Assembly (NCBI GenBank): GCA_946803715.1
Contig: CAMPET010000100.1
Location: forward strand, 61,678 to 125,677
DNA from: Beroe ovata
Taxonomy: Eukaryota > Ctenophora > Nuda > Beroida > Beroidae
Length of the DNA: 64,000 bases
Reading direction: 5' to 3'
This document shows, piece by piece, positions 3,798 to 63,870 of the stretch (position 1 is the stretch's first letter; every line of letters begins with the position of its first letter). Below the pieces are notes generated by a model. The model searched no databases, was not told the origin of the DNA, and saw only the letters and a program-made list of their open reading frames with translations. The translations under genes were made by a program, and so were the position numbers.

Positions 3798-5431
3798 TCA
3801 GCCCCCAATTTCAGTCATCTGGAGTCCACTGTTGGGATCCTCCTCTTTACCACGGATCTCCATGAAATGACGGACAAGTTTACACAGCCCAGCAGCAGAG
3901 AAGATCAATACAAGTATGACTGATGTCGATGCAAGAAAAACACTCGAAAACACGAATGGATCAGATAGTTTGGGTTGCAATAGCGTCTTAATATGATTCT
4001 CATTGATAAGCATCTGCGATGGTGTGGATGAAACTGCTGTGCTCTCTACAACATCCATTATCGGAGCTTTGACACATGTCAAGAACCGGATAGTGCTACT
4101 GCACGTTATGTTGTACTCTGGAGCGAAGTCGAGCTCGTTAACTCCGAATGTATCGAGACACCTGACCGTGATTATCTGTCCGGGGAGCTGGTAGGGAGAA
4201 TCAGAGTCGTGCTTCAGGTAGCCGTAGAGAATGCTCTCGTTGGATAAGTAGCACAGATTTTCCGAAACCAGAGCATCGTCTGTGTAGTCGACGGGCTTGT
4301 CCCGGAACTCAATGGAGAGCTCGACCTCGTCTTTGCCCGAGCGACCTCCCCCTCCCGCAATTCTGGTAGAGCAGTCCTTGAACGGGTATCTCTGATATCT
4401 GAGACTTATCGTGTTCCCTCCCTTCTTCTTGCACTTGTATATGAAGAGCGATTGCTCCCACTGATTTGATCTGAATCCTATGCATGGTTTATCTTCGTCA
4501 GGTACTACACCACTGCTCAACTCTAGCGTTATCTCGATACCACGTTTGGGGGGCCCTGCACTCCGCTTCAACTGCAGATTCCACGTGTTGGAACTATTGT
4601 GGGTGGAATGACACGGGGACAACATCAAATTGAACGATTCCACTTTGACTTGCCGAGTCTTCCCCTGACCCCCCACCTCCTTCAGATACTGGTACTTCAG
4701 AGCTGTCATGCACTTGTCTGAGAGTGGATACCGCATGTCACGGACCAACCAGCCCTGCCCTAATGCCAGGTCGGAAACTCCGTTCTCTCCGCACCGCCTC
4801 CCTCTTATACAGTGTTTGGAGGCGGTGAGCACTGTTGACGGGGCGTCCGCGACAGACACTCTGTATTTTATACGAGGAAAGAGGAAGCAAGTTTGTACGT
4901 CGTACTTGTATGAGAATACAATACACGATTTAAAGTACCTACAGAAAGTCCAGCATCGGTTGAGGCTAGATGTACGGAATTTGGCGAGTGAAAGATGGGC
5001 GGCAGGCATTTCCCCAGCAATGAGGCAGGACTGATCGATTTCATCTGTCTCAGTGATACTCTGCTGATGTGGCGTCGAACGGGGTGTTTCCTGAAAATGA
5101 ACCAAGGTGAGTTCGAGACAAAAACTTTGCACATCTAGTACAAATCCCACCAATTTTTTGTCATTCAATATTTTGGGACCGGTGACTCAACAACGTAACG
5201 AACGGCGAAGACAGTGTCATTTTACACTTTTACCGTTGTTGTAGGCTGCGTAAAACCCGTTCTAAAGTTGGCGGAATTGCTTCGTCGCACGGAATTTCGC
5301 GGGAAAGTCGCTGGATCGGTTGTGATACGAGTTTCCACTGCATTGGTGCTCAGAACTGAGCCAAGGACGTGAAGTAGTACGAGAAAAACTGTATAGAGCC
5401 TGACGTGGACATGCCCATGTATCCTCGGCAT
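3798..5431 (-). CDS. Type I membrane protein with PAN/apple-like ectodomain
   Basis: Two-exon model: 5431-5234 and 5090-3798, about 496 aa, with donor GTAAAA and acceptor TTTTCAG in matching phase. The N-terminus (MPRIHGHVHVRLYTVFLVLL) is a good signal peptide. A Cys-rich segment around residues 88-165 (CWTFCRYFKSCIVFSYK, then QTCFLFP) has the C-x3-C spacing and aromatic pattern of PAN/apple modules. A long extracellular part rich in paired Cys follows, then one hydrophobic span (VFSSVFLASTSVILVLIFSA) about 50 residues from the end and a short cytoplasmic tail. No catalytic domain is visible in the tail. The start is taken as this ATG because the second copy (7109-8381) keeps it, while the sequence just upstream shifts frame between copies. 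The role is unknown: probably a cell-surface receptor or adhesion molecule, by inference from architecture only. Confidence 0.75.
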
Positions 5432-7108: not shown

Positions 7109-8381
7109 CACCTGACCGTGATTATCTGTCCGGGGAGCTGGTAGGGAGAATCAGAGTCGTGCTTCAGGTAGCCGTAGAGAATGCTCTCGTTGGATAAGTA
7201 GCACAGATTTTCCGAAACCAGAGCATCGTCTGTGTAGTCGACGGGCTTGTCCCGGAACTCAATGGAGAGCTCGACCTCGTCTTTGCCCGAGCGACCTCCC
7301 CCTCCCGCAATTCTGGTAGAGCAGTCCTTGAACGGGTATCTCTGATATCTGAGACTTATCGTGTTCCCTCCCTTCTTCTTGCACTTGTATATGAAGAGCG
7401 ATTGCTCCCACTGATTTGATCTGAATCCTATGCATGGTTTATCTTCGTCAGGTACTACACCACTGCTCAACTCTAGCGTTATCTCGATACCACGTTTGGG
7501 GGGCCCTGCACTCCGCTTCAACTGCAGATTCCACGTGTTGGAACTATTGTGGGTGGAATGACACGGGGACAACATCAAATTGAACGATTCCACTTTGACT
7601 TGCCGAGTCTTCCCCTGACCCCCCACCTCCTTCAGATACTGGTACTTCAGAGCTGTCATGCACTTGTCTGAGAGTGGATACCGCATGTCACGGACCAACC
7701 AGCCCTGCCCTAATGCCAGGTCGGAAACTCCGTTCTCTCCGCACCGCCTCCCTCTTATACAGTGTTTGGAGGCGGTGAGCACTGTTGACGGGGCGTCCGC
7801 GACAGACACTCTGTATTTTATACGAGGAAAGAGGAAGCAAGTTTGTACGTCGTACTTGTATGAGAATACAATACACGATTTAAAGTACCTACAGAAAGTC
7901 CAGCATCGGTTGAGGCTAGATGTACGGAATTTGGCGAGTGAAAGATGAGCGGCAGGCATTTCCCCAGCAATGAGGCAGGACTGATCGATTTCATCTGTCT
8001 CAGTGATACTCTGCTGATGTGGCGTCGAACGGGTTGTTTCCTGAAAATGAACCAAGGTGAGTGCGAGACAAAAACTTTGCACATCTAGTACAAATCCCAT
8101 CAATTTTTTGTTATTCAATATTTTGGGACCGGTGACTCAACAACGTAACAAACGGCGAAGACAGTGTCATTATACAATTTTACCGTTGTTGTAGGCCGCG
8201 TAAAACCCGTTCTAAAGTTGGCGGAATTGCTTCGTCGCACGGAATTGCGTGGGAAAGTCGCTGGATCGGTTGTAATACGAGTTTCCACTGCATTGGTGCT
8301 CAGAACTGAGCCAAGGACGTGAAATAGTACGAGAAAAACTGTAAAGAGCCTGACTTGGACATGCCCATGTATCCTCGGCAT
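7109..8381 (-). CDS. Second, 3'-truncated copy of the PAN-type membrane protein gene
   Basis: Exons 8381-8184 and 8040-7109 repeat the gene at 3798-5431 with only a few amino-acid changes (for example HVHV to HVQV, RLYT to RLFT). The same signal peptide, PAN-like Cys segment and intron are present. The frame runs into the N at 7108, so the last part of the ectodomain, the transmembrane span and the tail are missing. The truncation coincides with the assembly join, so it is probably an artefact and not a biological pseudogene. Confidence 0.8.
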
Positions 8382-19497: not shown

Positions 19498-22400
19498 TCA
19501 TGAATTTGCATCCTTAAGATCGATGACATTGTCAATACCAGTTTTGCAAAAGAAGCATTCTTTAGAGTTATACAAATGCATGGTTATGCAAGCCCGACAT
19601 GATTGGTGGCCACATGGATTGAAGGCAGCTGATATTGGTCGGTCATAGCATATTGGACAAAGGTCTTCATCCGCTATTGTCGATTGTCGGGATTCTACAA
19701 TCATGGACCTTTGGATATCCTCAATACGACTGAGAAGATTGTCCACTTCTGCAACTTCACTTGTTGTGATAAAGTTGTAGTCAGGTCTGGATCGTTTCAA
19801 GCCAACAGTTTTGGTAGCATTGATAAAGTTTTGGAATACAACAAGGTCAAATCCACGTTCAGAGATAAGCTTCTTGAGGAATATTTCTGTAAGTAATGGT
19901 GCATTCCTGTGTAGATGAACTATGATCCCTGTAACAGCACAATTCAGCTTCAGAATATCGATAGTACTGAATCTTTGTACGATATAAGCGTCCTCAGTCA
20001 TGATTAGCTGCTTGTTCCTATTCATTATCTGGATTACCAGTTGAACCAGACGCTCCATATTTATCTCAGAAGTTGCATCATAGGTCATTGAGTCGGGGTT
20101 AGCTATCATGATTTGGGGAGACAGGGCAGAAATCATCTCCAAGAATCTGACTAAGATGATGGTCAAGTCATACCACATGAGGCAGCTTCTCTCAACTAAC
20201 GATGTGTAGGAATTCTGAGTTTTCCTGATGTCCTTTCTTGAATTCATGAACTCAGTAAGACAAGAATTCAATTGGTTGAAGACGATATTTGTGAATTTAG
20301 CTCCATTTTCACCTTGTGCCAAGAAGTTGCTGAAAAGATTCTGATACTTCACCGAAGGATTCGGTTCAACTTCATAAATACTCATGTACAGGGCAGTTCC
20401 TGCTAGAACTCCTGGGAGAAGAACCTCATGACGCTTGTTGTAGTATTCAGGGGGATCTCTGTAGGCAAAGCCATGACCCTTCCAAAACCTTATCAGCATT
20501 CGAGAGAGATGCACATAGTTTCCTTTACAGTAACTCGATACAACACTGTTCATGAAATGCTCACAATTAGACTCTGGTAGTCGTTCTAAAGCTTGTAACG
20601 TCTGAGGATAGTTGACAAAGATAACAGATGATTGTAGGATATGGTCTTTCACATCAATTGACTTGATTTGCGGGTTACAGATATGCTTAGCAAAGAAGAG
20701 TGCCAATTCACGGAACAGTGCTGGAGCTTGTCGGTGCCTCATCAAAACTTTCTGTGGGAAGCATTCCTGAAGTGCCCTGTACATATTGAGAATAGCCATC
20801 ATGTAAAATTCTGGCATGAAAATGAAAGCATCGCCATCAACTGCATCAACAGATCTGAGAAGTGTCCTCAGCATCCAGATATTATCATTCATCCTGCTCT
20901 CACTGAGGATAACAGTTTTGATCCAAGCTGTCATTCTGCTTGTTGTCACCGTGTCCTTCTCCAAAACTGCCTCACATTGCTTCAAATCTTGGAGAACCGC
21001 TTCTTCCTCAGGGGGGCAGTTGCGGATTTTTTCTTTAACGGTTTTCAGATGGGCAGCATGATCAGTCATTTCTCTACAAAATAGATCAGCCGACAGCAGA
21101 CGGCGATAAACTCCAAGATGGAAGAGAAGTGCAGTATTGTTGAGAATATGTGACATGTCATCCACTTCAGTTGGTTCTAAATTTGCAAGGAAATCTTTAT
21201 ATTCCTTCTTCAAGTGAGAATGATTGCCTCCAACTCGGGCTAACTCAGAGAAGTCTGACTGCATATTATTTGTCGTATAATATGATGGCTTGATATAAAC
21301 ACGAGATGCTGCAGCATGAGATGGATTTTCTGCAAGAGACCTGGCAATAGCTAGGAATAGGTTAGACATGAATGCTTGCTGGTGGATGGGAATATTGCGC
21401 AAGTTTGATATGGATACTGCTGCTGCAAGAATTTGGTTAATGAAGTCATTCAGGTAAGCAAGGAACTTTTTCAAATGCTTTCCCGACAATAATATGTCAA
21501 GCATTTTTGCGAACATTGCCTCGACTTGTTTGATTGCCCCATAGATGTTTTTTGTGGAATTTTCATATGACTCTTTGTGAGTGTCATTTCCAGGCCACCA
21601 GGCATGGGGTACAACAGAACATAGAAGTTGTCCATCAGGTCCCTTGAAATGTAGGAAGCGCATGAACCTGTGTCCAAATAATGGCGAGTTGATAATGATT
21701 TCACTGAATTTCGGATCAGCCAACATGTCAATGGCGAGCTGCAGCAACTGCAACTTTTGTGTTGGCTGATTTGAGTAAACACAGCAATAGGACATCAGAG
21801 CAACTGTGTGGAATAGTTCATCAACAAAACTCTCAAGTTCCCACTCATCCAAGAAAGTTGTAATTGCTTCAAAGAATCTTGCTCTCTTCTCAGGTAGTTG
21901 ACATTTCTCAGTAATAAATGGTACAATAAGTGAGTGGATTATGTATGGAGTTCTGACCAAGTGACCTATTTTGTCAAATATATGAGCCATGCTGATCTGA
22001 GTATAAAATAAATTGTTTTGCTTAGCAGAATTGAGTTGAATCTTGAGAATAGCATTCACAGATGTCAAGTATTGGTCAACGCAATACAGTTCTTCTGATG
22101 GATAAACCTGGATGGGCTCAAAACCTTCGATCTTGTAATTAAATGGTCGGTCACCAAAGTTTATCCTTATATGCTCTTCAAAGGAAAGTGATACTGCAGG
22201 AAAATATGCAAAACCAGTCCCAGTTCTAACATTTGTGAAGGCAACTCCAAGTGATACTCCATTTCTATAATATGATACTTCCCCTACATCCAAGTCTATA
22301 CAGCAGCCTATAACATCACCAACATTCCATTCTTCACCATAATCTACAGCTCCTTTGTTCCACTTCTTAATTCTTTTTCCATCAAATGCAAATGAGTTTT

Positions 22401-23193
22401 CAGTATCCCCTACTCCCTCTTGAGTTGTGAAGTTTGCAAAACTGCTGGGTGTAGTCCATCCAAGCTGCATGATTCCACGACTGAGCAATAATGCTTCATA
22501 CATCCATTTTCCTTTAGTCAATGCAGTATTAGCACAGCATGTACTGAAGTTAGATTTACCTTCAATGTCTAGCTTATCATGGCTATAAACAAAGTATCCC
22601 ATAGATCTTCCTGGATCCATTCTGACAATGGAGGGACCAAAAACACCATCAACCTCTGCTCTTTTTTTCATATCAACTGCATTATCTTTTGACTTATCAG
22701 TAGGAGTTGGTATAGAAATGGCCTGTCTTAAACGGACATCCAGACTACTGAAAATAAGGGGCTTCTCTGAATTGAACTCATCAACATTTTGCATACTATA
22801 CAGGAATGGAAATGCCTCTTGTAAGAAGCATGTCTGATCATGAGTTGATGAACCGAAGGATAAACTATTGCATAGTTCTGGAGATAGGGTGCTTCTGATG
22901 CTTTCTGAGGACTCTACTATTCTGAGCTGCCTCTTTGAATCTAGAGTGCTGAAAGGAGATTCAGTTATACACAATACTGTGAATATATGAAACAGAATAA
23001 ACTCAACTACTTTGTTCAAAATACATTTCAAAAATAGAGATTCTCTAACGACATAAATCAGCAAACTGAAAATAGTGATTGGATCATTCTTATTGCATAG
23101 TGCTTACCTGCTCCCAGATGAAGAGGGTATTTCAATATGGATTGGAGCAGCAATATCACCATTGATATCATCAGATTCCAAAGATGGGTCCAT
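19498..23193 (-). CDS. RNF123: RNF123 / KPC1 E3 ubiquitin-protein ligase
   Basis: Predicted 1178 aa (human about 1314). Exon 1 is 23193-23108 (MDPSLESDD..., donor GTAAGC). Exon 2 is one very long exon, 22948-19498 (acceptor TTTCAG). A SPRY domain lies near residues 130-300 (KGKWMYEALLLSRGIMQLGW, EEGVGDTENSFAFDG, NVGDVIGCCIDLDVG, YRNGVSLGVAF). The long helical middle contains family landmarks such as AFIFMPEFYMMAILNMYRAL. The C3HC4 RING is at the extreme C-terminus (CPICYDRPISAAFNPCGHQS to ECFFCK, about 1126-1164), with all zinc ligands present. From family knowledge, RNF123 with UBAC1 ubiquitinates p27Kip1 in the cytoplasm and also acts on NF-kB p105. The N-terminus is shorter than human and the intron count is very low for such a large gene. 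Family assignment is near certain; the first exon is slightly less so. Confidence 0.96.
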
Positions 23194-36543: not shown

Positions 36544-37764
36544 ATGCTTGACAGTGAAAAAGTCAAGACTATCATTGGAAAATTGATTGATAAAGCTACT
36601 CTATCTATCAGACCAGTTATTTCTAGTTTTGACTGTTTTCAGAGTCGTTCGAGCAATATCCACCGTATCAGTCAGCACACCGTCGCACTTCTCGAATCTT
36701 GTGCTGAGTTCCTTGGGATCTCCCTTTCAGACGACAAGGGTTTCAAATTGTTCAACAAGTCATCTCTCGTGAGCCGCATCTACCTTGGGTTGGTGGCATT
36801 AATGCCAGCCACATGTGCAGAATGTGGAGAGGGCTACGTGACTGAGCACGAAGCTGACCCTGCACCGTTCTTCTACTGTTTCAGGTGTTTCAAAGGGGCA
36901 CATAACTGCGAGAGAAACCGTGTCCTGCATCAGACATTCTCAGTACTGGACACGCCGACCGGGTTCGTGTGGCTCTGTGACACATGCCACGCTGATGTGG
37001 ATCCAATAGAGCCCAGAAAACAGAGATCACGTCACACTTCAACTTCCATTGCTACGGACAGTACATCTGATCTCTCTAACCTCACTCTCTCAGGTGCAAT
37101 GTCCTCAACACAGAGACATTCCCGTGACACACCCCCTGTGGGTGGAGCACATTCTTCCACCTCATCTGCTACAGCACCGGTGGTGACTCAGCCAGCCACA
37201 CAGGTCTGTCAGAAATATCTCAACTGGGACTGCCCTCATGGGATATCTGGTAGGAAGGAGATCAATGGACAGTGTTGTCCCTTCTCACATCCCAGGCTCT
37301 GTAATCAGTTCAGACAATCAGGGTCGAAAGGTAGGAGAGGATGTAAGAAAGGAGCAAATTGTCAGTACCTACACCCTGACATCTGTGAATGTTCGCGGAG
37401 GAAATGCTCCAAGTTCCACCCCATATCTGACATGAAAAAAGCAAAGACTGAATCTCGCAATAATGTGGGGAAGGCGCCGAAGAATAGGAACTCTAAATCG
37501 GGCAGTAAAGCTGGTTCTAGCTCGAGTGATTTTTTAGAGTTAAAAAACTTGGTCGCAGGGATGGCGACCAAGATGGAATCTCTGGAGAAGAGGATGGAAC
37601 AGGGTGCGGCATTGCCAGGCTCGCAGGCAGTCGCACACCCAGCTCCACATCACCCTTACCACTTCCCCCAGGCCAGGGTGTACCCAACTCCATCACCGCA
37701 GATTCCACAAGGAGTATCCAGCCTTCCTCTCCAAACGTCTTTCTCTCATCCCTACTGCTTCTAA
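36544..37764 (+). CDS. Retrotransposon ORF1 protein: PHD-like plus CCCH-type zinc fingers
   Basis: About 406 aa from the first ATG after the N at 36540. Around residues 90-160 there is a PHD-like Cys/His cluster (CAECGEGYV, CFRCFKGAHNC, WLCDTCHADV). A Ser/Thr-rich linker follows. Residues about 225-310 then carry repeated CCCH-like units (CPHGISGRK, CCPFSHPRLC, CKKGANCQYLHPDIC, CSKFHP). A short helical stretch (LVAGMATKMESLEKRMEQ) and a Pro/His-rich tail complete it. ORF1 proteins bind element RNA and chaperone it into particles. Zinc knuckles are common in non-LTR ORF1, but a PHD-like module combined with CCCH fingers is less usual. The ORF2 frame overlaps its 3' end. Confidence 0.8.
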   Translation: MLDSEKVKTIIGKLIDKATLSIRPVISSFDCFQSRSSNIHRISQHTVALLESCAEFLGISLSDDKGFKLFNKSSLVSRIYLGLVALMPATCAECGEGYVTEHEADPAPFFYCFRCFKGAHNCERNRVLHQTFSVLDTPTGFVWLCDTCHADVDPIEPRKQRSRHTSTSIATDSTSDLSNLTLSGAMSSTQRHSRDTPPVGGAHSSTSSATAPVVTQPATQVCQKYLNWDCPHGISGRKEINGQCCPFSHPRLCNQFRQSGSKGRRGCKKGANCQYLHPDICECSRRKCSKFHPISDMKKAKTESRNNVGKAPKNRNSKSGSKAGSSSSDFLELKNLVAGMATKMESLEKRMEQGAALPGSQAVAHPAPHHPYHFPQARVYPTPSPQIPQGVSSLPLQTSFSHPYCF

Positions 37765-40465
37765 ATGCTAGGAGTATCAATCCGTCTGCTCAGGGTGTCG
37801 GCAGATGGAAGCTCAATGAGCTCATTGGGCACGTCGAGGAGAAACGGAACACTGGACAACTGTTTCCTTTCATAGCTGTAACTGAGACATGGTTGAAATC
37901 TTACATCAGTGATGCGCAGGTTCACATTCCAGGTTACAGTGTGTCGCGTAGTGATCGCGGTGGGAGGAACGGTGGGGGTGTGATGCTTTACTCACTTTCA
38001 TCTCTTCCTGTTTCTGTTTCTGAATGTTATGATGACGGCACGTGTCAGGCACTATGCAACGTGTACCCTTCCGCCAAACTTCTCGTTGCAGTCGTATACA
38101 GGCCTCCTGACGCGAGCTATTCCAGCTTCTCTCAGTTGTTAGACAACATCAGACACAATATCGACATGTTACCAGACACTAACTACGATATCTTCATTAC
38201 TGGTGACTTCAACCTACCTCAGATAGATTGGCAGTCCCTTCAGATTATGAGTGGGGGGGCATCTGAATCGAATTTATCAGCACAGTGCCTGCTTAATCTG
38301 ATGTCGACATATCTGCTTAATCAGATGGTTTCGGTGTCGACAAGAGGCCAGAACACTCTTGACCTGGTTCTCTGCAATAACGACAGACTGATATCGAATG
38401 TTTCAGCTGAAGCTACAGAGCTATCAGACCATGACATGGTAAATGTTCTCTTCTCATTCACGCCAGGTCTAATGGAGGATCCTCAGACCTCCTACCTCGA
38501 TGAGATGAGCTTCCGGTCACTAGATTTCAGTCAGGCGGATTTCCAGAAACTTGATGATGAGTTTGCCAGTATTGAATGGAAGAAATTACGGGATTCTGGA
38601 TCTTTTGAGGATCTCCCAGCTAGGCTCAACCGAGTCATTCTGGAGGTGTGTTCGAGGAATGTCCCTCGTAAGCGTCATCCAACTGGTAAACCGAAGGTTT
38701 ACAACTCTCTCAGGAGAAAGAAATCGAAGCTAAAAACACGTCTCTCGGCTGCTCGATGTTCAGGTGACGCTGTGCGCATCAAGAAACTGGAAGATGAGAT
38801 TGGGCGTGTCTGCTACGACATCAAGGAAGCTGTCACCAACCACTTCGACCAAGGTGAGAAGCGAGCTGTCGAGAGAGTTAAGTCCAACCCCAAATATTTC
38901 TATTCATACGCTAAATCCTTCTCCAAGGTTAGGCACAGTATAACAAGCCTCATGAATAGAAATGAGGAACTGGTAACGGATCAAAAGAAGCTTGCTAACA
39001 TTCTCCAAAACCAGTTTTGCTCAGTGTTCAGTGACCCAAACTGTCCTGACAAGACTGAGCCCTCTTTCACTGTACCTCCTCTCACTAGACAAGACCCAGA
39101 GCCAGTGCTGACATTGGAGAACATACAAGAAGCTATATCTGAGATCAAGCTGGATTCTGCCCCAGGTCCTGACGGTGTGCCAGCTGTACTGTTGAAGAAA
39201 TGTGCCAACAGCCTGAGCGTGCCCATTCATATTCTCTGGTCAGAGTCTATGTCAACTGGCATCGTGCCAAGTTTCTACAAGAGAGGATACATCACACCGC
39301 TGTTTAAAAAAGGTAGTAGGTGCAATGCAGCAAACTATAGACCTGTCACCCTAACATCCCATGTTGTCAAGGTTTACGAAAGGGTGGTCAGGAAATGTAT
39401 GATTGAGCATCTCGAAACTAATAATCTCCTCAGTGATAAACAGCACGGTTTCAGATCCAACAGAAGCTGCTTGACCCAGATGCTCGACCACTTTGATGAC
39501 ATATTTCAAGGGTTAACACGTGGAGAAGATACCGACTCTATCTACTTGGACTACGCAAAGGCGTTTGATAAAGTCGACTTGGATCTGCTCATCAAGAAAC
39601 TGTCAAGGTATGGTTTTAATAGCAAAATCATTGATTGGGTTCAATCATTCCTCTCTGATCGGGAACAGGTGGTAGTTCTGAACGGTGTTCATTCAGATAG
39701 CGCCCTTGTTAGGAGTGGCGTTCCTCAGGGGAGTGTATTGGGACCCCTACTCTTCATACTGTTCATCAACGATTTGGAGCAGGTGGTGGTCTCATCCAAA
39801 GTCAGTTTCTTTGCGGATGATACAAGGGTCTCCAAACAGATTTCTTGTTATGCTGACTGCATGTTGCTCCAAGATGACCTGTTGCGCATACTAGACTGGT
39901 CACGTGCCAATAACATGGAGCTTCATGAGCAGAAGTTTGAGCTGTTAAACCATCTTCATAACAGCAGAAGCTCTCTACTGGAACTTCCGTTCTCTGCCGA
40001 AGCTCTCCAGTACAAGGTATCTAGCGATCAAATTCTCCTCCCCGTTGATAAAGTCCGTGATCTCGGTGTCCAGGCATCGAGTGACTTGAGCTGGTCGAGA
40101 CACATAGCTGATATGGTCTCTAGAGCCAGGAGCACACTCTCATGGGTGTTCAGTGTTTTCCGGACTCGAGATAGCGTTACTATGGTGACACTGTACAAAT
40201 CGCTAGTAAGGAGTACGCTAGAGTACTGTTGCCCACTTTGGAACCCCAGCAAGGTGACGGACATACAGCTTATTGAAGGAGTCCAGCGGACATTTACGAG
40301 CCGAATAGATGGTCTCCGTAATCTAGGCTACTGGGAGAGGCTTAAGAAGCTCAACTTGACATCTTTGCAGCGCAGACGTGAGCGCTACATCATCTTAATG
40401 ATGTGGAAAATCCTCCACAAAGTTGTCCCTAACTGTTGCAACATCCAGTTCAATGCTTCATCAAG
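37680..40465 (+). CDS. Retrotransposon ORF2: endonuclease and reverse transcriptase
   Basis: The frame is open from at least 37680, overlapping ORF1, and runs to the N at 40466. The true start is unclear. The APE-type endonuclease shows LLNARSIN, AVTETWLKSYI, VVYRPPDASY, FITGDFNLPQIDW and ELSDHDMVNV. The reverse transcriptase shows KLDSAPGPDGVPAVLLKKC, NYRPVTLTSHVVKVYERVV, DKQHGFRSNRSCLTQ, YLDYAKAFDKVD, SGVPQGSVLGPLLFILFIND and the catalytic FFADDT. These are the standard domains for target-primed reverse transcription. No stop or frameshift interrupts the RT domain. No RNase H domain is visible before the truncation. Confidence 0.9.
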
Positions 40466-51085: not shown

Positions 51086-58944
<7,859 letters not shown>

Positions 58945-59323
58945 GCTACACATGATGTGGATTAGTTTGAGCAATTACCATTGGAGTTACTGGTACATTC
59001 TGTAAAATACAATACAAAAACTACATGTTCAAACTTAGGGACAAGAGTGAAATTAGGGTAAAATCAGAGTTCAAAAGTTATCATGCTAAGATTGTTTCCG
59101 TTATAATACAAAATACGAGTTAAATTGATCATTAAAAAGGATAAAGAGTGTTTTGGCGTTAGAAATTTACAACATGCACTGACAAAATTACAGGTTTTTA
59201 CAAATGAAATAATGGTAAAATACTTCATTTCTAAATAGGTAAACTAAATGGAAACTGTACCGATAGATCAAAACTACTCACTACTGTATGAAAACAATAT
59301 TCACGTCTATTTCGTGAGCTCCT
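58945..59323. other. Spacer between PPIE and the protoglobin gene
   Basis: AT-rich, no coding frame. It holds the PPIE promoter and the 3' UTR of the next minus-strand gene. Confidence 0.5.
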
Positions 59324-60321
59324 TCATTTTCTCCCAGAGAACGCAACATATGCTAGTGCCCCCACAAACCCCACAGTTGCCAAGCAGATAGCAGCTGTTA
59401 TAGTACCGGGTACAGCAGCGGGGGAACTGGACTCGGGAATGCGCTCATACCACTTGCTGATAAACTGTCCCAGAACAGCCAGTATCTTACAGAATGCCCG
59501 AACTGTGCCGACTATATCAAAATCGTGACTCCCTAGGAAATCATTTGTTGTTGGGAACAATGAACTGTGAACAGAGGGCATTTAAACCGGTATACACCGT
59601 ACATCATTAGATTTGTCAAGCTAAAATATGGGAAAGATAGTAATGGGAAATACTAAATTCTGTATTGAGAGGAATCTCCAAATGTGACTCACCCTCACTA
59701 CCAGATTGGTGGAAAGTGTAGAGTTCAGCAATCACTGCATCCTGAAGGAATGCGAGCAACACCTGCATGTGGATCAACTCCACGTTTATCGACGTTCGTC
59801 CAGAGAGGGGCGTGTGAATCCGTCCCATTCTGTCCAGCTCGTCCAGCATTGCGCCGTCATACGGTTTAGTTACCAGTCTGTCAGGAGCGGAGCAAGTGAA
59901 AACTATCATGACGTACCATTGAGTGAGTTCCTAATACTTGGTAGTAAGTGCCAATAATAACCAACAAAAGAAGATTCAAATTCATTCAGGAATGATGGAC
60001 CAGGAACTCTCTATTTACCTCACAAGGAATCTCTTCAAGGATGACTTCCTCATCCCAATTTGTGGCTTGTTCAAATCGTAGTTGTCCAGAGTTACCTTTG
60101 CTGACGGATCGTCATATTTTGTTCGTTCTCTGAAAAACACCTGCAAATTCACACTCAGGAAATCGGGAATTTGTCTGGGTTGCGGAAATTGAACTCTTTA
60201 CACCGCTCGTACAGCGAGTAGAAGAAAAAATACCTTCTTAGTGCAGCTGTAAGCGAATAGTTTATCGTAGACGGCGTCTACCAGTGCATCAACTCTCGGT
60301 CCAAGAACACTAGCCGAACCT

Positions 60322-60353
<32 letters not shown>

Positions 60354-60522
60354 GAGATCTCGAGTGTGCGCGCGAGGGAGCGAGGGGGAGCGGGGGGGGG
60401 GGTGGGAGGGGANNNNNNNNNNNNNNNNNNNNNNNNNNNNNNNNNNNNNNNNNNNNNNNNNNNNNNNNNNNNNNNNNNNNNNNNNNNNNNNNNNNNNNNN
60501 NNNNNNNNNNNNNNNNNNNNNN

Positions 60523-60555
<33 letters not shown>

Positions 60556-60829
60556 TTTGATTAATCATTAATGAGTCATGGAACATCATAGGTAGAATGA
60601 AGTTGGGAATTCCGAGTTATAATACAATATAATCACAGAAAGGAGTTAAAGTCATAGAAAGAGAGAATCGAAGTCGGAATTTGCTGTTTCTCCCCTTACC
60701 ATGAATAAGATCGATATCAGATTCGTTGATCCCTATGAAATCACTAAGGTATGAGTATCTGTAGCTCAGATCTGTATACAGTCTGCCCTCATCAATATTC
60801 TTAACAGGTATCACAGTAGCAGCTTCCAT
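59324..60829 (-). CDS. Protoglobin-family globin with C-terminal membrane anchor, 5 exons
   Basis: Predicted 243 aa. Exons: 60829-60700, 60319-60234, 60140-60019, 59877-59693 and 59532-59324. All are GT-AG with matching phases and sum to whole codons. The fold signature reads through the joins: LYTDLSYRYSYLSDFIGINE, DIDLIHGSASVLGPRVDALV, DAVYDKLFAYSCTKK, LNKPQIGMRKSSLKRFLV, RLVTKPYDGAMLDELDRMGR, IHTPLSG, and VRAFCKILAVLGQF. This corresponds block by block to protoglobins and sensor-type single-domain globins (PF11563). The His of GRIHT falls at the proximal, haem-binding F8 position. After the globin, a linker (ERIPESSSPAAVPG) leads to one hydrophobic span of about 20 residues and SGRK, a tail anchor of the kind used for ER or outer mitochondrial membranes. 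Intron 1 carries a microsatellite gap. Ligand (O2, NO or CO) and partners are unknown. Family confident, anchor likely. Confidence 0.86.
60320..60552. repeat. GT microsatellites around assembly gap (N 60413-60522)
   Basis: A GT run, then a GA/G-rich stretch, then N, then another GT run, all inside intron 1 of the protoglobin gene. The CA complement ends directly at the exon 2 acceptor AAG. Confidence 0.9.
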
Positions 60830-62299: not shown

Positions 62300-63074
62300 T
62301 TAGTTGAGCGTGTAGTTCTCCCTTAGCTCATGAAGATGCTGCTTTATCTCTGAAATATCATCCTGCAGGACTCCAGCAGCGATCAAATCAGTGTTCTGGT
62401 TGACGTTCACCGGCTCAGATAATACCTGAGAGTGGAGAGGCGAAGGTGGTGAAACAAAACTTCAGAAAATGGACAAACGAAACACTTTCATTGGGAAAAC
62501 ATGTTCCATGATATCAAACCAAATAGGAAATGGATACATTTTCTATGACAAACGATGACAGCATGACATTTGTATTGTGTGTCGTGTACTTTATTTGAAG
62601 TTCAGTGACTAATGAGTACCCTGTCTATAAGATGTATTGGCTGGTCTGAGTTTTGGAGCATGGTTATAACTGGTAGCTCTGTGACAGCAGACTTCCGGAC
62701 CTTCTCGTGAGGCTGCCTCAATCTACCTGTTATTATAGAAAACGTACAAAGTGTAATTTATAACAGTGCTGAGGGAATGCTTGTTGAAATGATTTTAAAA
62801 ACCATCCGAAATATAGAAGGCCACCTATATATGAGTATATCATATAATTATAGACAAAAACAATTGAAAGCACTGTCTAGGACAGAAACACAAATATACT
62901 CAATACTCACCATCTGATAATATCGTTTTACTGAAAAACTGTGGAAATTTTGGGGATAGCTTTATTGATGAAGGATGGTAGGAGAATTTCGTTGCTGAAC
63001 TGAACACCGATGTAACTCCAGAGAGATGTGAGAAGAAGGAGTGGCTGTTGCCAACACTTGGGATACCACAGCAT
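62300..63074 (-). CDS. 3' end of unrecognised gene, copy 1
   Basis: Exons 63074-62911 (cut by the N at 63075), 62726-62620 and 62425-62300. They encode the same C-terminus as copy 2, ending DISEIKQHLHELRENYTLN. Relative to copy 2 it lacks 9 bp in the first exon (VTSVFSS instead of VTSETKVFSS), an in-frame three-residue difference. It is most likely the other allele and not a second gene. Confidence 0.55.
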
Positions 63075-63107: not shown

Positions 63108-63870
63108 TTAGTTGAGCGTGTAGTTCTCCCTTAGCTCATGAAGATGCTGCTTTATCTCTGACATATCATCCTGCAGGACTCCAGCAGCGATCAAATCAGT
63201 GTTCTGGTTGACGTTCACCGGCTCAGATAATACCTGAGAGTGGAGAGGCGAAGGTGGTGAAACAAAACTTCAGAAAATGGACAAACGAAACACTTTCATT
63301 GGGAAAACATGTTCCATGATATCAAACCAAATAGGAAATGGATACATTTTCTATGACAAACGATGACAGCATGACATTTGTATTGTGTGTCGTGTACTTT
63401 ATTTGAAGTTCAGTGACTAATGAGTACCCTGTCTATAAGATGTATTGGCTGGTCTGAGTTTTGGAGCATGGTTATAACTGGTAGCTCTGTGACAGCAGAC
63501 TTCCGGACCTTCTCGTGAGGCTGCCTCAATCTACCTGTTATTATACAAAACTTACAAAGTGTAATTAATAACAGACTGAGCGAATGCTTGTTGAAATGAT
63601 TTTAAAAACCATCCGAAATATAGAAGGCCACCTATATAAAAGTATATCATATACTGAATACTCACCATCTGATAATATCGTGTCACTGAAAAACTGTGGA
63701 AATTTTGGGGATAGCTTTATTGATGAAGGATGGTAGGAGAATTTAGTTGCTGAACTGAACACCTTGGTTTCCGATGTAACTCCAGAGAGATGTGAGAAGA
63801 AGGAGTGGCTGTTGCCAACACTTGGGATACCACAGCATGAAACATAGGTGTGATGGAGTGGTAGGTTCAC
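63108..63870 (-). CDS. 3' end of unrecognised gene, copy 2 (upstream exons outside window)
   Basis: Exons 63870-63666, 63534-63428 and 63233-63108, all with matching phases, give the last 145 residues of a protein. Visible segments: VNLPLHHTYVSCCGIPSVGN, KLSPKFPQFFSDTILSDG, HEKVRKSAVTELPVITMLQN, QPIHLIDR, VLSEPVNVNQNTDLIAAGVL, and a short amphipathic helix at the C-terminus. I see no known domain. The first exon opens at a CAG acceptor preceded by an in-frame stop, so the start lies beyond the window. Confidence 0.6.

Follow-up and report, generated by a model that had tools for sequence, protein, structure and literature searches.

A spliced single-domain protoglobin gene with a likely C-terminal tail anchor in the ctenophore Beroe ovata

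Globins of the S family (protoglobin and sensor types) were described in 2012 from fungi, from one rotifer, Philodina roseola, and from one Naegleria, as reported in the available part of that work (PMC3287990). The window analysed here, a stretch of 64,000 nucleotides from the ctenophore Beroe ovata (contig CAMPET010000100.1, positions 61,678 to 125,677), holds a gene of five exons that, judged from its sequence, encodes a single-domain S-family globin ending in a likely membrane anchor. Among the closest known proteins are the planctomycete-type single-domain protoglobins (P0007, P0011 and loci of Gimesia, Gemmata and Schlesneria), which have the same domain and pocket residues at ~44-46% identity but are mostly ~190-200 residues long, occupy a single open frame, usually lie beside a divergent Rrf2 regulator and yielded no tail. 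The bdelloid proteins (Philodina roseola ACD54784.1 and Rotaria P0292) are likewise single-domain S globins in an animal; P0292, a strong match to the Pfam Protoglobin family PF11563, is 29% identical to the window globin, has 199 residues and no tail, and finds its best relatives among other planctomycete-type proteins. The archaeal protoglobin of Methanosarcina acetivorans (MaPgb; 2VEB) is ~16% identical and also lacks a membrane tail. Globin-coupled sensors such as AfGcHK, GsGCS and HemAT carry a signalling part, whereas Pfam recognises only one domain in the window globin. Globin X and the other animal globins bound to membranes belong to the F family (PF00042) and are held at the membrane by lipid through N-terminal acylation; the window globin resembles globin X as an animal globin probably at a membrane and differs from it in its S-family domain and predicted C-terminal span. 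No description of an S globin in ctenophores was found in the literature searched, preprints and most subscription journals lying outside that search. The preliminary description of this DNA, which knew of no metazoan member of the family, was mistaken on that point, given the Philodina roseola protein (PMC3287990).

The spliced globin gene is real. It runs on the reverse strand from 60829 to 59324, its ATG sitting two codons into the open frame, and five exons (Table 1) separated by four GT-AG introns (entry phases 1, 0, 2 and 1) give 243 residues and a stop; unread bases inside one intron make its length uncertain. P0001, a protein from another source that is 73% identical to the window globin over 86% of the model, was matched five times at E ≤ 10 across the complete assembly of 77.8 Mb, once per exon and always at this locus (identity 58-74%, E from 3e-27 to 8e-9), the only one found there. 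The exon-3 match overruns a few bases into an intron, crossing one TAA there. The exons join in phase, as had been proposed, and the model aligns with its relatives across all four junctions. Among 18 AG acceptors tried for intron 4, skipping those fewer than 30 bases in, the tail stays in frame with four (59532, 59511, 59502 and 59394), of which 59532 gives the full 243 residues and retains those that align with relatives. An alternative exon-5 acceptor at 59564 breaks the frame and was ruled out. P0001-P0005 are uninterrupted frames of 204-236 residues on contigs of 766-1145 bases, which they fill with little room for introns, and they therefore offer indirect transcript support. Seven short open reading frames (ORFs) from other contigs (P0291 and P0293-P0298) span about one exon each, and their similarity stops at or near the junctions of the window gene (Table 1), with a weak overrun of up to 8 residues in P0294 at junction 4. 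Each of the four intron positions would therefore be seen at least once elsewhere, if those contigs are genomic.

The spliced protein matches PF11563 over residues 23-205 at 92 bits, against a cut-off of 25 (E 5e-26), which confirms the complete protoglobin-type domain claimed beforehand. Pfam listed two families up to E 10, neither of them PF00042; the second lies far under its own cut-off. A scan of the unspliced DNA gave a single weak exon match to PF11563 (26.1 bits), so that without splicing the gene would nearly have been missed. The proximal histidine, correctly placed in the motif GRIHT by the preliminary description, is His134 and occurs in 173 of 173 aligned rows, and Tyr61 in 172 of 173; by profile alignment, at weak E-values, they correspond to His120 and Tyr61 of MaPgb, and their predicted helix positions are F8 and B10. 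A phmmer search of the PDB with the single sequence gave chance-level matches only (best alliin lyase, E 0.52), and a profile was needed. Structures were modelled for the relatives P0001 and P0003, not for the window protein itself; the P0001 model is a globin fold whose closest counterparts are protoglobins and sensor domains, the nearest solved folds including AfGcHK, GsGCS and HemAT. With its 243 residues and no second Pfam family over cut-off, the window globin falls within the single-domain sensor globins (Sgb), which generally have fewer than 260 residues according to the available part of PMC3287990. No signalling domain was found, the PF11563 match leaving 38 residues after it and no further family exceeding its cut-off.

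Hydropathy agrees with the earlier claim of a single C-terminal hydrophobic span resembling a membrane anchor. Residues ~217-239 form the sole strong hydrophobic span of the protein, at its extreme C-terminus as in tail-anchored proteins, with the best Kyte-Doolittle 19-mer (mean 2.15) at 221-239 and four residues (SGRK) after it; on an insertion scale, the tail 19-mer sums to -0.06 versus 8.26 for the best 19-mer of the globin part. This tail is likely a tail anchor. Short, moderately hydrophobic spans with a basic end are typical of tail anchors of the mitochondrial outer membrane or peroxisomes. The possibility that the tail is merely the last globin helix was ruled out, as that helix ends before the span in the P0001 model. 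A hydrophobic tail occurs in four of the six closest relatives (P0001, P0002, P0003 and P0005) and in none of the 172 other database proteins examined; of the 178 proteins in this test, 130 have at most 198 residues and hence no room after residue 180, and 48 are longer. Among the 80 bacterial loci analysed below, 70 encode proteins of at most 204 residues, and the remaining ten have a maximum tail score of 0.94.

A single-sequence search returned 440 proteins; among the best 120, which were listed, six relatives (P0001-P0006) are 52-73% identical to the window globin, followed by proteins at ~40-46%, the named ones mostly from Planctomycetes. A profile built from the six, with which the best 7998 candidates were scored, gave at least 68 matches: the six, the seven short ORFs, the bdelloid protein P0292 and 54 others. 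A genome scan kept 80 of 179 loci (L007-L086), mainly from Planctomycetota, with some from Verrucomicrobiota and others. The tree of 105 rows comprised 79 of the 80 loci (L061, with an odd 365-residue frame, was omitted), 18 database proteins from outside the clade, the rotifer protein and seven clade rows. In it, the window globin and its six relatives form one clade with support of 100/100, from a bootstrap that had not settled, and we call the six ctenophore because this clade unites them with the window gene; P0006 is presumably from Pleurobrachia, to go by its style of gene-model naming. Next to the clade stands P0007 (95/90), from a 12-kb contig taken to be bacterial, amid mainly Planctomycetota rows; the branch leading to the rotifer protein is very long. 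Of the phylogeny suggested in the preliminary description, the prokaryotic part was carried through and gave this clade of seven; fungal and Naegleria sequences are not among its rows. Six residues following the proximal histidine are missing from the divergent relatives P0004, P0006 and P0293; since P0293 is a short ORF on a separate contig, the gap may be genuine and point to a paralog.

The surroundings of the bacterial genes give some clues to function. By tblastn, 58 of 80 loci encode an Rrf2-family regulator divergently, no more than 600 bases ahead of the protoglobin (any match, 59 of 80), and of the 78 loci whose upstream sequence is 500 bases or longer, 20 gave no Rrf2 match; regulator and protoglobin apparently form a conserved regulatory pair. 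When predicted ORFs were clustered instead, just 36 of 59 members (distinct loci) were divergent within 600 bases, in a cluster that held spurious overlapping ORFs. Both of the two regulators tested exceed the Rrf2 superfamily cut-off and neither reaches that of a specific family. Rrf2 proteins often respond to nitric oxide (NO), Fe-S state or iron, which makes it plausible that the bacterial genes act under NO, O2 or iron stress. Another neighbour cluster, the third, spans 16 loci; it proved to be a mix with out-of-frame ORFs and was dropped, the single protein tested from it matching nothing in Pfam or NCBIfam. In the ctenophore genome, an exon-wise search with prokaryotic controls, which does not prove absence, found no canonical globin (PF00042). 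The available parts of the literature report Pleurobrachia bachei without globin in a survey and a globin X-like (clade-III-like) sequence in one ctenophore (PMC7771090), one globin-like gene in Mnemiopsis leidyi (PMC6077788) and an androglobin in the same species (PMC13331133). As for NO, the accessible portion of PMC10073611 describes NO synthase as possibly lost from Pleurobrachia and Beroe. According to it, doses of NO donor that were toxic to Bolinopsis had no such immediate effect on Pleurobrachia or Beroe and affected Mnemiopsis moderately; these data fit an NO-handling role only loosely. One HNOB domain, of the soluble guanylate cyclase type, is present at G000:C81:51421-51876 (+), in a genome where NO synthase was not detected.

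We give an about even chance to a reading in which the gene encodes a tail-anchored haem globin with TyrB10, of planctomycete-type bacterial origin, that performs NO/O2 chemistry at an organelle membrane. A planctomycete-type single-domain protoglobin would have been taken up before the sampled clade members split and would later have gained four introns and the C-terminal anchor. In the protein, His134 (F8) would coordinate haem b, Tyr61 (B10) would touch the ligand and Leu107 would occupy E11, leaving a five-coordinate haem open to O2 and NO; attached to the mitochondrial outer membrane or the endoplasmic reticulum and facing the cytosol, the globin may carry out NO dioxygenation or a detoxification related to it, near the chief consumer of O2. 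Several findings weigh against this. P0004 (204 residues) ends without the tail and P0006 (166 residues) stops earlier, the tail comes out unfolded in the model of P0001 (predicted local distance difference test, pLDDT, <50), and the tail helix of the P0003 model has a pLDDT of ~45. No reductase partner was identified, and NO synthase was not found in the exon-wise search, with the same limit on proving absence, so that no endogenous source of NO is evident. The bacterial regulators score 42 and 55.7 bits with NsrR, against a curated cut-off of 182 that gives no support to that identity, and the SUF-regulator and RirA models outscore it (57.9 and 62.1; 51.8 and 60.9). Finally, the approximately unbiased (AU) test, based on 47 of the 80 loci, seven non-clade database proteins and the same eight rotifer and clade rows, does not reject ctenophores and rotifer as one clade (p 0.567), and the tree held to that grouping scores 3.3 log units better than the free tree; bacterial transfer is thus not proved. 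A possible but clearly less probable role is that of a membrane-tethered O2/NO sensor, in which ligand binding would change how the globin is shaped or paired, for a membrane partner to relay the signal in place of a HIF-type response. The sensor domains among the nearest folds of the P0001 model would be consistent with it, as would the proposal of haem proteins as alternative sensors in ctenophores, where HIF-alpha, PHD and VHL orthologs were not found (available part of PMC5800844). However, likeness of fold is no proof of function, no signalling domain is joined to the globin, no sensor partner is known, and the same source reports a bHLH-PAS protein with a HIF-like motif in Euplokamis. 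It seems rather unlikely that a captured bacterial NO/O2 globin became a tail-anchored sensor or enzyme replacing HIF, and ordinary globins in the species reported without them.

The grouping that the AU test does not reject would also be consistent with vertical descent, that is, an S globin inherited from early eukaryotes, kept in fungi, Naegleria, bdelloids and ctenophores and lost in most animals; the S globins of fungi, Naegleria and a rotifer (PMC3287990, in part) fit this history, which we nevertheless consider improbable. By BLAST, the window globin is ~45% identical to planctomycete-type proteins versus 29% to P0292 (rank 253 of 259), and P0292 is ~41% identical to planctomycete-type proteins, with the best clade member at rank 244 of 256, although the long rotifer branch keeps these relations from being decisive. 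The simplest reading, if not a proven one, would be that a planctomycete-type donor passed the gene on long ago, independently of the transfer to the rotifer. Bacterial contamination, misassembly or a dead gene might be suspected from the closest proteins outside the ctenophore clade being bacterial, but is very improbable indeed: the frame is intact, the pocket residues are invariant, and the shared intron positions, the clade of relatives and a ctenophore neighbour together argue strongly against contamination, as the preliminary description had argued from the four introns. That neighbour is an RNF123-like gene at 19501-23103 in the window, with SPRY, TPR_RNF123 and RING domains, whose product has its best named match in M. 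leidyi (85% identity over 95%), with one contig protein at 94% and the next named animal, Nematostella, at 31%; the host is therefore a ctenophore, though distinct from the M. leidyi in the database.

The preliminary description had also relied on a PPIE gene upstream on the same strand. By direction of transcription this PPIE-like gene lies downstream of the globin gene, its first ATG ~380 bases past the globin stop and its cyclophilin motifs at 51.4-51.9 kb, and on its own it does not indicate an animal; it is the RNF123-like gene that does so. A MATE-type transporter ORF (PF01554; 52774-54393, reverse strand) is flanked by RRM exons of the PPIE-like gene (51400-58974) on one side and by its cyclophilin motifs on the other, as if nested in an intron. 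Ten ORFs surrounding the globin gene were without any Pfam match above cut-off. A block with near-identical ORFs occurs twice (62300-62760 and 63108-63600) a short way upstream of the globin gene. Elsewhere, a long forward-strand ORF with endonuclease and reverse transcriptase domains (37530-40463) represents a LINE-type (long interspersed nuclear element) retrotransposon, and two nearly identical reverse-strand ORFs (3801-5186, with a sub-threshold PAN-domain match, and 7111-8136) indicate a recent local duplication.

Table 1. Positions in the window of the globin gene parts and of the next gene downstream
Feature	Position	Strand	Basis
Exon 1 with start codon, residues 1-43	60700..60829	-	Frame, GT donor; P0001 match to residues 4-43; junction 1 also in P0297, P0298
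Exon 2, Tyr61 (predicted B10)	60234..60319	-	Splice model, P0001 match, alignment
Exon 3, Arg103 and Leu107 (predicted E helix)	60019..60140	-	P0001 match; both junctions (2 and 3) also in P0295
Exon 4, proximal His134 (GRIHT)	59693..59877	-	P0001 match; junction 4 also in P0291, P0293, P0294, P0296
Exon 5, last globin helix, hydrophobic tail and stop	59324..59532	-	Splice model, P0001 match, hydropathy
Codons of C-terminal hydrophobic span, ~residues 217-239, then SGRK	59336..59404	-	Hydropathy; low-confidence helix in P0003 model
PPIE-like gene, RRM exons	58593..58974	-	RRM matches; next gene downstream, same strand

The ctenophore lineage is one of the earliest to have branched off in animals; the available part of PMC5800844 reports no HIF-alpha, PHD or VHL orthologs in them. 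Surveys that use F-family globins would be expected to miss an S globin. This globin merits experimental follow-up, as a concrete candidate for the handling or sensing of O2 and NO in ctenophores: it is conserved across its clade, only members of that clade carried a tail in the protein set analysed, and its phylum has yielded no HIF pathway. If this is true, a bacterial-type gene would have been built into animal biology.
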